From Candidatus Troglogloeales bacterium (GTDB lineage: Bacteria; Nitrospirota; Nitrospiria; SBBL01): DNA of 39,033 nucleotides. A program made the translations under genes and the position numbers. Location of the stretch: contig SBBL01000016.1 of the NCBI GenBank assembly GCA_005239745.1, forward strand, positions 1 to 39,033, read 5' to 3'. The notes under the pieces were generated by a model. The model was not told the DNA's origin. It saw nothing but the letters and a program-made list of their open reading frames with translations, and did not search any database. The first letter of the stretch is position 1. The number at the start of each line of letters is the position of its first letter. Below, piece by piece: positions 3,662-6,844 of the stretch.

Positions 3662-3733
3662 AGGCGCGTAGCTCAGGGGTAGAGCGCTTGCTTGACACGC
3701 AAGAGGTCGGCGGTTCGAGACCGCCCGTGCCTA
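3662..3733 (+). tRNA. tRNA-Val(GAC)
   Basis: A 72-nt cloverleaf: acceptor AGGCGCG/CGTGCCT (one G:U), D-arm GCTC/GAGC, anticodon stem CTTGC/GCAAG with loop TTGACAC (anticodon GAC, valine GUC/GUU), T-arm GGCGG-TTCGAGA-CCGCC, discriminator A. CCA is not encoded, unlike both alanine tRNAs in this window. Its 3' end lies only 19 nt before the thrS start, so the two may share a transcript that needs tRNA processing. Confidence 0.95.
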
Positions 3734-3752
3734 TGTGCTATCGGAACGTTAC

Positions 3753-5666
3753 ATGGAAGTTTTACTTAAATTAGACGGCAAGATCGAGAAGCGGGTCGCC
3801 GTGGGAACGCCGTTTTCCGATATCGTCGCGTCCTTAAAAAACAAGCAGGACGTCCTAGCCGTGTGTGTCAACGGGCAAATGAAGGACCTCTCCGCAACGG
3901 TCAGTGAGGATGCCAACGTCGAGCTTCTCACCTTCGACTCCGATAGGGGGAAAGATGTCTATCGGCACAGCAGCGCTCATCTCATGGCACAGGCCGTGAA
4001 AGAGATATACCCATCCGCCCGGATGACCATTGGCCCCACCATCGAGGATGGCTTCTATTATGACTTTGATTTTGAACGCCCCTTCGTCCCGGAAGACCTT
4101 GAAAAAATTGAGGCCCGTGTCGGCCAAATCATTAAACGCAACCTTCCCATCCAGCGCATAGAGTTGTCGAGGGAGGAGGCCATTAAACTCTTTACGGAGC
4201 GTGATGAACCTTATAAAGCTGAGCTGATTGGCGATATTAAGGCGCCGCCCATTTCGATCTATCGCCAGGGGGAGTTTATTGACCTCTGTACCGGGCCGCA
4301 CGTCCCGTCTACGGGCAGGATCAAGGCATTCAAGATTTTGGGGAGTGCGGGTGCCTACTGGCGGGGGGACGAAAAGAACAAGATGCTCCAACGCATCTAC
4401 GGCACGTCGTTTAGTAAGATGGAAGATTTGAATGCCCACCTCGAAAAATTAGAAGAGATCAAGAGGCGCGATCACAGGCGCTTGGGCAAGGCACTTGACC
4501 TGTTTTCAACGTCCGACGAAATTGGGGCAGGCCTGGTGCTTTGGCATCCCAATGGGGCGATTATCCGAAAAACAATGGAAGACTTCTGGCGAGAGGCCCA
4601 CCTGAAGTCGGGCTATGCGTTGGTTTACTCGCCGCATGTGGCTAAGCTTGACCTTTGGAAGCAAAGCGGCCATCTTGAGTTTTACAAAGAGAATATGTAC
4701 AGCCCGATGGAGGTGGACGGCTGTCCCTACGAAATTAAGCCGATGAATTGTCCTTTTCACATCGTTATCTATAAGTCGCATTTGCGCAGTTACCGGGACC
4801 TTCCATTGCGCTTTGCGGAGTTGGGAACGGTCTATCGCTACGAGCGCTCCGGGGCGCTGCACGGGTTGCTTCGCGTGCGCGGTTTTACGCAAGACGATGC
4901 CCATATCTTTTGCCGCCCGGAACAAATGGCCTCGGAGATATTAAGTGTCCTAGATTTTACGACTTATGTGCTGGGAACGTTTGGTTTTCATCAATATGAT
5001 ATTTACCTCTCAACGCGTCCGGAGGCGTATGTAGGGACACTGGAACTTTGGGAACAGGCAACCTCTGCCCTAGGATCGGCCCTTCAACAAAAGGGGCTGA
5101 CGTATAAGGTGGATCCGGGAGAAGGGGTCTTCTATGGGCCCAAAATTGACGTAAAAATTAAAGATACACTGGGGCGCGCGTGGCAGTGCGCCACGATTCA
5201 GGTGGATTTTAATCTTCCGGAGCGTTTTGGTATCTCTTATCGGGGGAAGGATGGGGGGGAGCAGCCGCCCGTGATGATCCATCGTGCACTGCTGGGGTCG
5301 CTGGAGCGCTTTTTAGGGGTACTCATTGAGCATTATGGCGGGGCGTTTCCGCTTTGGTTGTCGCCGGTGCAGGCTGAAATTATCCCGATTACTGAACGCC
5401 AGCAAGCATATGCACGCAAGATTTGGCAGCAATGCCAGAGTGCGAACCTGCGAGCCTCGGTAGATGACCGTAACGAGCGGATGAACCTGAAGATTCGTGA
5501 AGCCCAGATGATGAAAGTTCCCTATCTATTTGTGGTCGGTGATCGGGAAGTCGAAACGGAAACCGTTTCTGTCCGCACGCGATCCGGGGAGAGCGTTACG
5601 ATGGCACTTTCTGATATACTACGAAAGGTACAGGCAGAGAATGAACAAAGGTGTGTCGTTAGTTGA
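3753..5666 (+). CDS. thrS: Threonyl-tRNA synthetase
   Basis: 637 residues, full length. It charges tRNA-Thr and edits Ser-tRNA-Thr. Domains in order: TGS (1-62); SAD editing domain with the HxxxH motif H72/H76 and the second zinc-type pair in DLCTGPH; class II catalytic core with zinc-ligand cysteine in NCPFH, motif 2 around YRYERSGALHGLLRVRGF, and motif 3 in MIHRALLGSLERFLG; then an anticodon-binding domain from about residue 540. An in-frame GTG at 3735 overlaps the tRNA-Val end region, so I prefer ATG 3753, where the TGS domain begins (MEVLLKLDGK). No T-box leader is present. Followed by infC after 66 nt in the classic thrS-infC-rpmI-rplT order. Confidence 0.96.
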   Translation: MEVLLKLDGKIEKRVAVGTPFSDIVASLKNKQDVLAVCVNGQMKDLSATVSEDANVELLTFDSDRGKDVYRHSSAHLMAQAVKEIYPSARMTIGPTIEDGFYYDFDFERPFVPEDLEKIEARVGQIIKRNLPIQRIELSREEAIKLFTERDEPYKAELIGDIKAPPISIYRQGEFIDLCTGPHVPSTGRIKAFKILGSAGAYWRGDEKNKMLQRIYGTSFSKMEDLNAHLEKLEEIKRRDHRRLGKALDLFSTSDEIGAGLVLWHPNGAIIRKTMEDFWREAHLKSGYALVYSPHVAKLDLWKQSGHLEFYKENMYSPMEVDGCPYEIKPMNCPFHIVIYKSHLRSYRDLPLRFAELGTVYRYERSGALHGLLRVRGFTQDDAHIFCRPEQMASEILSVLDFTTYVLGTFGFHQYDIYLSTRPEAYVGTLELWEQATSALGSALQQKGLTYKVDPGEGVFYGPKIDVKIKDTLGRAWQCATIQVDFNLPERFGISYRGKDGGEQPPVMIHRALLGSLERFLGVLIEHYGGAFPLWLSPVQAEIIPITERQQAYARKIWQQCQSANLRASVDDRNERMNLKIREAQMMKVPYLFVVGDREVETETVSVRTRSGESVTMALSDILRKVQAENEQRCVVS

Positions 5667-5670
5667 AGGT

Positions 5671-5694
5671 CGCCCCCAATAACAAAAGGGGGCG
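5671..5694 (+). promoter_or_regulatory. Hairpin in the thrS-infC intergenic leader
   Basis: CGCCCCC (5671-5677) and GGGGGCG (5688-5694) form a perfect 7-bp stem with a 10-nt A-rich loop, 4 nt after the thrS stop. No U-run follows, so it is probably not a simple terminator. It may stabilise an RNA end or take part in control of infC translation. Only the pairing is directly seen. Confidence 0.5.
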
Positions 5695-5701
5695 GGGAGT
5701 T

Positions 5702-5743
5702 ATGAAAATCCTTATGATTAAGGGGGCTGTCTATCGTTTCTAA
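5702..5743 (+). CDS. Possible 13-residue leader ORF overlapping the infC start
   Basis: An ATG at 5702 just after GGGGAG opens a 13-codon frame (MKILMIKGAVYRF) ending in TAA at 5741-5743. It runs across the infC ribosome site and ends 8 nt past the infC AUC start, in a different frame. If translated, it would compete with or deliver ribosomes to infC. The spacing from GGGGAG to the ATG is very short (2 nt), so translation is uncertain. Confidence 0.25.
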   Translation: MKILMIKGAVYRF

Positions 5744-6260
5744 ACTGCGTATCAACAGAGAGATACGGGAGGACCAGGTTCGGGTAATCGGCTCTAATGG
5801 CGAACAGGTGGGGGTGCTTCCTCTTGGTGGAGCGCTTAAAATGGCCGAAGAGGTGGGACTTGATTTGGTAGAGATTGCGCCCCTGTCTCGCCCGCCTGTT
5901 TGTAAGGTCATGGACTATGGGAAGTACCGGTATCAGCAGAGCAAGAAAGAACATGACGCGCGGCAACGCCAAAAGGGGACCCAACTCAAGGAGGTGAAGC
6001 TACGGCTTTTTACCGGCGAGCATGATCTTAAGTTTAAGATACAGCATATCCGTGATTTTTTGGAAGGCGGCCATAAGGTTAAAGTGACAATGATGCTAAA
6101 GGGGCGGGAGCGGGCTTTTCAGCCGCGCGGACAGGAGCTTATGGTCGGCGTTTCGGAGCAACTACAAGGTGTGGGGCAGTTGGAGTCTGCCCCCAGGATG
6201 GAAGGAAATAGCATTGGGATGATGCTTATCCCGAAGGTGATACGTAAGGAGAAGAAATGA
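5733..6260 (+). CDS. infC: Translation initiation factor IF-3, AUC start
   Basis: 175 residues. IF-3 binds the 30S subunit, prevents premature 50S joining and checks the start codon. The conserved N-terminal block (LRINREIREDQVRVIGSNGEQ) is read only if translation begins upstream of the first conventional in-frame start, GTG 5808. The frame is closed by TGA at 5715-5717, and the only credible start in between is ATC 5733, 6 nt after the ribosome site AGGGGG (5721-5726). AUU and AUC starts in infC are known in other bacteria and underlie autoregulation by IF-3. The C-terminal domain has VKLRLFTGEHDLKFK. The stop overlaps the rpmI start as ATGA. Confidence 0.9.
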   Translation: MVSKLRINREIREDQVRVIGSNGEQVGVLPLGGALKMAEEVGLDLVEIAPLSRPPVCKVMDYGKYRYQQSKKEHDARQRQKGTQLKEVKLRLFTGEHDLKFKIQHIRDFLEGGHKVKVTMMLKGRERAFQPRGQELMVGVSEQLQGVGQLESAPRMEGNSIGMMLIPKVIRKEKK

Positions 6261-6457
6261 AAACCAAGTTAAAGACCCACAAAGGTGCTGCGAAGCGGTT
6301 TTCTATTAGGGCTTCCGGTAAGGTGACACGCAGACAGGTGGGGAAACGGCATTTGTTGAGCCATAAGAGGGCGAGACGCAAGCGTCAGATTAGCGGTATC
6401 GCGGCAGTCCACGCGGTTGAGACGGGTGCCGTGAGAAAGATGCTGCCGTACGGTTAG
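6257..6457 (+). CDS. rpmI: 50S ribosomal protein L35
   Basis: 66 residues, the normal size, very basic. Conserved motifs KTHKGAAKRF and KRHLLSHKRARRKR are present. The protein is part of the large ribosomal subunit. The ATG overlaps the infC stop by 4 nt (ATGA), so translation is coupled to infC; GTAAGGAGAAGAA just upstream gives a good ribosome site. rplT follows after 21 nt. In other bacteria L20 represses rpmI-rplT translation; no specific L20-binding pseudoknot was worked out here. Confidence 0.97.
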   Translation: MKTKLKTHKGAAKRFSIRASGKVTRRQVGKRHLLSHKRARRKRQISGIAAVHAVETGAVRKMLPYG

Positions 6458-6478: not shown

Positions 6479-6844
6479 ATGCCAAGAGCAAAAGGAGGGC
6501 CCAAGACCCGGCACAGGCGTAATGATCGCCTTAAAATGGCCAAGGGTTACTATGGGGCAAAGAGCAAGTTATACCGGACGGCAACGGAAGCGGTAGATAA
6601 GTCGCTCCTGTATGCCTATCGCGATCGTCGAGCGAAAAAGCGCAATTTCAGAAGGCTCTGGATTGCACGAATCAATGCGGCGGCTCGAATGCACGGCGTG
6701 ACCTATAGCCGGTTTATGGAGCATCTTAAAAACACCGGCATCACGCTCAATCGTAAAGTATTGGCGGATATTGCGGCACACGACGCGAAGGCCTTTGGAG
6801 ATATCGTTGTGACCATGCCTGGGAAAATGGCCGCGGGAGGCTAA
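6479..6844 (+). CDS. rplT: 50S ribosomal protein L20
   Basis: 121 residues, typical length. The N-terminal basic extension ([25 protein letters not shown]) and the globular domain with [21 protein letters not shown] and NRKVLADIA are characteristic. L20 is needed for early 50S assembly and is often the translational repressor of this operon. The ribosome site GGGAGG precedes the ATG. Last gene of the thrS-infC-rpmI-rplT group; a hairpin follows 12 nt later. Confidence 0.97.

Follow-up and report, generated by a model that had tools for sequence, protein, structure and literature searches.

The infC locus

The window, i.e., the whole stretch of 39,033 nucleotides that was analysed, carries on its plus strand the row thrS, infC, rpmI and rplT, presented in Table 1 together with the other features of the locus. 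The first ORF of this row is taken to be thrS, and the two ORFs downstream of infC, presumably rpmI and rplT, were named from sequence and position. The infC product was identified as translation initiation factor IF-3 by a Pfam search for the IF3_N domain, while its C-terminal part is covered by a match to solved IF-3 chains. The search against these chains yielded a near full-length match to the product, with a best E of 6.1e-41: query residues 10-173 match residues 13-177 of the 180-residue chain 8jsg_A, which we take to be E. coli IF-3, and in the three best chains the alignment begins at query residue 10 or 12, corresponding to positions 5745 or 5751.

Table 1. Features of the infC locus (positions in the window; SD, Shine-Dalgarno sequence).
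Feature	Position	Strand	Remarks
tRNA-Val (anticodon GAC)	3662-3733	+	directly before the thrS ORF
thrS (threonyl-tRNA synthetase) ORF	3735..5666	+	from the ORF list; name assumed
Hairpin in the thrS-infC gap	5670-5695	+	8 pairs, loop of 10, no T-run after it
Out-of-frame ORF, MKILMIKGAVYRF, then stop	5702-5743	+	ATG start; SD -10.7 kcal/mol, spacing 8
In-frame TGA	5715..5717	+	upstream closure of the infC frame
SD of infC, AAGGGGG	5720..5726	+	anti-SD duplex -11.2 kcal/mol, spacing 5 to ATC 5733
infC (IF-3)	5733..6260	+	175 codons from the probable AUC start at 5733, then stop; stop at 6260
ATC, probable start codon	5733..5735	+	strong SD; Ile codon and SD kept in relatives
IF3_N match	5751-5960	+	E 2.1e-31, 108.8 bits, 70/70 profile positions
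GTG, first in-frame conventional start	5808..5810	+	within IF3_N; rejected as start
rpmI (L35)	6257..6457	+	ATG start, SD -9.2 kcal/mol; name assumed
rplT (L20)	6479..6844	+	ATG start, SD -10.2 kcal/mol; name assumed

The tRNA-Val gene at the head of the row is possibly co-transcribed with thrS. Between thrS and AUC 5733 lie 66 nt, and these hold a hairpin. The fold of 5667-5700 has an energy of -15.8 kcal/mol and a z of -2.70, and the thrS-infC gap folds with z <= -1.5 in 5/6 f3 loci and 7/7 f9 loci, with differing sequences; the hairpin may play a part in the stability or processing of the mRNA. The region around the AUC (5700-5780) folds no better than its shuffles (z -0.57). A short out-of-frame ORF crosses both the SD and the AUC of infC and ends 8 nt past the AUC codon. 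A comparable ORF was found in only 14 of the 109 loci with enough thrS-infC gap (window included), with unrelated sequences, and is thus not a conserved leader peptide; in this genome, the ORF might act on infC initiation by coupling or by competition.

Start codon of infC in the window

The earlier note on this DNA had proposed that infC starts at AUC, the conserved N-terminus of IF-3 being readable only upstream of the first conventional start. The full 70-position IF3_N match does begin at 5751, upstream of GTG 5808, which corresponds to approximately position 20 of the profile. The closure of the frame by a TGA at 5715-5717 is likewise confirmed. The codons that follow this TGA in the infC frame read L-R-G-L-S-I-V-S-K-L-R-I-N-R-E-I-R, and no AUG, GUG or UUG is present in the frame between the TGA and the conserved N-terminus. 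GTG 5808, located 25 codons downstream of ATC 5733, is hence the first in-frame ATG/GTG/TTG after the TGA, and the mechanical ORF list begins infC there and trims the protein by 25 residues, as had been anticipated. Given IF3_N begins at 5751, initiation at 5808 would mean the loss of conserved protein.

The placement of the SD also stands as described: AGGGGG at 5721-5726 is followed by six bases (CTGTCT) and then by ATC 5733-5735. Among the six in-frame codons tested, ATC 5733 is the only one with a strong SD: CTG 5727 reaches -3.3 kcal/mol and GTG 5808 -1.9 kcal/mol, while CTG 5745, ATC 5751 and ATA 5763 have none. The SDs of rpmI ATG 6257 and rplT ATG 6479 are given for comparison in Table 1. 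The anti-SD sequence used in all energy computations is an assumed one, given no 16S match, and hence no readable 16S rRNA 3' end, was found in the available sequence of the organism's own genome or of nine relatives. Taken together with the related genomes discussed below, these features indicate infC very probably starts at AUC 5733.

Start codon in the order and class

Relatives were searched by tblastn with the thrS ORF as query, which located thrS upstream of infC; the position of the thrS stop is doubtful for two loci, G003 (-14) and L206 (687 nt). Given the window's genome is the sole member of its genus and family among the genomes compared, the nearest comparison is at the order level. 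All 18 genomes of the order have infC. Upstream of the domain, eleven of them (the window's included) have an ATC preceded by an SD; the other seven have an ATG, so AUC is not indispensable. In nine of the eleven, the ATC precedes profile position 1 by exactly 18 nt, the distance seen in the window; in the two f4 genomes the distance is 42 and 48 nt. In two f4 loci (L090 and L091), the ATC of infC, which is out of frame with thrS, precedes the end of the thrS frame by 35 and 29 nt.

For the class, 102 loci (window included) were drawn from the 248 class genomes with a match, partly by best score; f10, f11 and a number of genera, including the large g40 of f13, lie outside the sample. Starts were assigned by a family rule, i.e., AUG for f15 and for genera g3 and g4 of f2, and an AUH (AUA, AUC or AUU) near the domain otherwise. 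Under this rule the class comprises 72 ATC, 1 ATA, 1 ATT and 28 ATG starts, two f2 genomes (G004 and G006) being counted as AUG starts even though they satisfy the AUH rule at -5.5 kcal/mol given in the next section. In 74/102 loci, therefore, the domain is closely preceded by an Ile codon with an SD in front of it. The ATG loci form two groups only, namely all 21 of the f15 loci then sampled and seven loci of two f2 genera, while a third f2 genus (G001) retains ATC.

The choice among Ile codons is itself uneven. The AUH starts of the class are ATC in 72/74 loci vs 55/74 at the Ile of the fifth domain codon (Fisher p 7.5e-5) and 584/806 at the other Ile codons of the same ORFs (p 8.4e-8), relatedness being not removed in either comparison. 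Hence, the synonymous third base of the start codon is constrained.

Conventional codons are found near many of these starts. In 33 of the 74 AUH loci, a GTG or TTG that a gene caller could take as the start coincides with the first domain residue or shortly precedes it (38 codons in all): 29 loci have GTG at that residue itself and 9 have TTG two codons earlier. No SD among the 38 reaches -5.5 kcal/mol, the best being -0.8. In six of the 74 loci a conventional codon lies further upstream, again with no SD <= -5.5 kcal/mol.

One genome (G017) contains a second, divergent IF3_N copy (L099), whose first conventional codon is TTG and which was removed before the class count. The estimated contamination of this genome is 8%; the copy may be a paralogue or belong to a foreign contig.

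Start codon across the phylum and chance controls

The phylum search yielded a match in 382 of 395 genomes, class included, and 87 loci outside the class, they too picked partly by best score, were read. Of these 87, 86 have an AUH whose SD lies at spacing 3-10 and has an energy of -5.5 kcal/mol or lower. The earlier note had suggested the upstream region of relatives be inspected for a conserved AUC or AUU, and an Ile-type codon with an SD is indeed what prevails there, in both the class and the rest of the phylum. In terms of codons, the 84 loci tallied outside the class comprise 67 AUA, 11 AUC and 6 AUU. The sole locus without an AUH (G360) seems to start at TTG. Five of the 86 are less clear due to rival conventional codons: G288, G302 and G322 have one with some SD as well, and in G301 and G381 a GTG overlaps the thrS stop.

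Some loci leave little room for any other start. In 13 of them the AUH is the second codon after the frame stop, so no start is possible upstream, and in six more it is the third. In G030, where the frame reads TAA-CCT-ATC and continues for 135 nt with no conventional start, the AUC is the sole plausible start.

Chance was evaluated with a strict test, in which an in-frame AUH with an SD <= -7 kcal/mol at 3-10 nt must lie between the frame stop and the domain. It is passed by 161 of 190 phylum loci (162 under the looser rule at -5.5 kcal/mol given above). When applied within the IF-3 ORF to four windows of equal size, the same test is passed by 11, 0, 0 and 5 of the 190 loci; in the two other frames, by 20 and 5; and in shuffles, by 113 of 3,800. 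A chance placement of the AUH and its SD is thus excluded.

A set of 80 named loci that spans many groups of bacteria presents a similar picture, with an AUH and SD in 73. Forty of these 73 have no conventional start in the searched stretch, and four have a conventional start that bears an SD. Three of the other seven loci have neither an AUH with SD nor a conventional start, and four seem conventional.

The candidate start at AUC 5733 is therefore strongly supported, as its codon, position, SD and frame closure all recur in the relatives. If so, the N-terminus of an essential protein is corrected here, where a conventional-start caller would cut 25 residues, and such a caller would place the infC start wrongly in many related genomes. 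The near-cognate start of infC appears widespread in the sampled phylum, with interchange among AUC, AUA and AUU tolerated and AUG seldom used.

Alternative starts

It is very improbable that the start is another non-canonical codon, i.e., CTG 5727, CTG 5745 or ATC 5751. All three are in frame and unconventional, and the places of 5745 and 5751 carry TTG and GTG in the relatives counted above. In the window, however, only CTG 5727 has any SD, a weak one, and the relatives' conventional codons at the two places lack an SD, whereas the place of 5733 holds an AUH with one. The two CTGs, put forward in the earlier note as competitors, are thus much weaker candidates, and SD and conservation together rule out all three codons.

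The reading in which infC begins at GTG 5808 and the open frame upstream is untranslated is scarcely credible. Although this is the first in-frame conventional start, using it would cut off approximately profile positions 1-19, its own SD is weak, and the stretch upstream is conserved in relatives as protein, as SD and as codon; SD and conservation again rule it out.

That a one-base error in the contig hides a true start at ATG 5702, now in another frame (MKILMIKGAVYRF, then stop), is next to impossible: the SD of this ATG is good (Table 1) and the assembly is a draft of 145 contigs, but relatives from several families share the frame with an ATC at the same place, an SD-led out-of-frame start reaching the infC start occurs only in the few unrelated cases noted above (14/109), and the infC frame is intact to its stop, so the frame error is ruled out as the frame is common to the relatives.

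The lineages with AUG

Two lineages have switched to AUG. In f15, 32 of 35 loci (e.g., L168, L123 and L272-L284) have an infC AUG that overlaps with the stop of thrS, by four bases (ATGA) in 26 and by one base in 6; the overlap is absent in G226, G237 and G255. When 22 f15 loci were tested, none presented an AUH or a conventional start with an SD <= -5.5 kcal/mol at spacing 3-10. SD-like stretches do exist at an abnormal distance (-7.1 kcal/mol at 13 nt in G236 and -6.0 kcal/mol at 15 nt in three g56 loci), so the lack of an SD in f15 refers to normal spacing. SD use has not been lost by the lineage: rpmI has an SD in all five f15 loci where it was found, 17 being without a find (this control was unfound in 59/161, 0/7 and 17/22 loci). 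In the two f2 genera, g3 and g4, a GGAGG precedes the AUG by only 2-3 bases, and TAATG occurs in 2/7 loci.

Given the f15 AUG lies on the thrS stop with no SD at normal spacing, its translation would be by re-initiation. In E. coli, re-initiation at an AUG that lacks an SD declines when IF-3 is in excess, and IF-3 is described as inhibitory in three cases, namely non-canonical starts, leaderless mRNAs and SD-less re-initiation (PMC2268962). The f15 lineage may therefore have exchanged a non-canonical start for SD-less re-initiation while keeping its sensitivity to IF-3. The broader proposal, by which the phylum would keep IF-3 feedback by two routes, AUH with SD and the SD-less AUG re-initiation of f15, is tentative and rather doubtful, since two AUG switches are few and are independent by taxonomy only. 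If it holds, f15 changed its start codon and perhaps left IF-3 sensitivity unchanged. With these two AUG lineages, nature provides a test of what is under selection, the codon as such or the sensitivity of the start to IF-3.

Another possibility is that AUG starts simply accompany the overlap of thrS and infC. This is weakened by five AUH loci with a four-base overlap with the thrS stop that nonetheless have an SD; the choice of codon is therefore not settled by overlap alone. A limited literature search, covering titles and abstract openings, returned no paper on infC-thrS re-initiation in Nitrospirota. In the portion of its text available, a paper on termination-reinitiation names the E. coli infC-rpm pair and not thrS-infC (PMC6728339).

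Proposed IF-3 feedback

In the proposed mechanism, the 30S subunit would be positioned by AAGGGGG, the strong SD that lies five or six bases ahead of the AUC, and would set the initiator tRNA on this near-cognate codon, which has a third-base mismatch. Complexes of the 30S subunit on near-cognate codons would be destabilised by IF-3. Plentiful IF-3 would then lower infC translation and scarce IF-3 would raise it, a negative feedback. IF-3 is described as destabilising 30S complexes on non-canonical starts, whereby infC controls itself (PMC5472188), and autoregulation through the AUC can soundly be inferred from the work on E. coli and Streptomyces. By the same analogy, we infer that IF-3 discriminates against AUC 5733 in the source organism. 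At 13 selected positions of E. coli IF-3, the protein of the window is identical in six (71, 75, 99, 110, 133 and 134) and differs in seven, so a discrimination of equal strength is not to be assumed.

It is also conceivable, if unlikely, that AUC is the start but acts mainly through its weakness, fixing IF-3 at a low level with negligible feedback. Near-cognate starts lowered the yield of three reporters in S. aureus (PMC13009471), and AUG replaces the codon in some relatives. On the other hand, the change of AUU to AUG in E. coli abolishes autocontrol, according to the title of Butler 1987 as cited in PMC5472188, and the near-cognate arrangement is present in most of the phylum loci read. 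Feedback by IF-3 on the AUC start probably operates in this organism.

Comparison with known systems

Near-cognate infC starts are documented elsewhere. The statement in the earlier note that AUU and AUC starts of infC go with IF-3 autoregulation agrees with what is described for E. coli (ATT) and Streptomyces (ATC) (PMC5472188). AUU is given as the infC start of both E. coli and B. subtilis (PMC1805508), S. aureus infC has an AUA start with ribosome density on the codon (PMC13009471), and a survey of genes that prefer non-AUG starts in bacteria exists (arXiv 2008.10758, cited in PMC9845219). Given AUU, AUC and AUA starts of infC are already published for other bacteria, the infC of the window is a further example of a known arrangement.

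The gene order of E. coli is thrS-infC-rpmI-rplT, as in the window. Its infC also resembles the one described here in having an Ile-family start and a strong SD (PMC1805508, PMC5472188). It differs in the codon, AUU there vs AUC here, and in that feedback is demonstrated there and proposed by analogy here.

Streptomyces belongs to a phylum different from that of the window's organism. Its infC has the same ATC start, and is reported to be misannotated in most Streptomyces species (PMC5472188). In the window, the nearest conventional start is downstream, unlike in Streptomyces, so misannotation would shorten the protein. In Myxococcus xanthus, the IF-3 gene dsg/infC has an AUC start, as here, and its IF-3 has extra regions, unlike here.

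The infC of S. aureus likewise combines a near-cognate start with an extended SD and a retapamulin-enriched ribosome density on the codon (PMC13009471). Although its AUA differs from the AUC of the window, AUA is the commonest form in the window's phylum outside its own class (67 of the 84 tallied loci).
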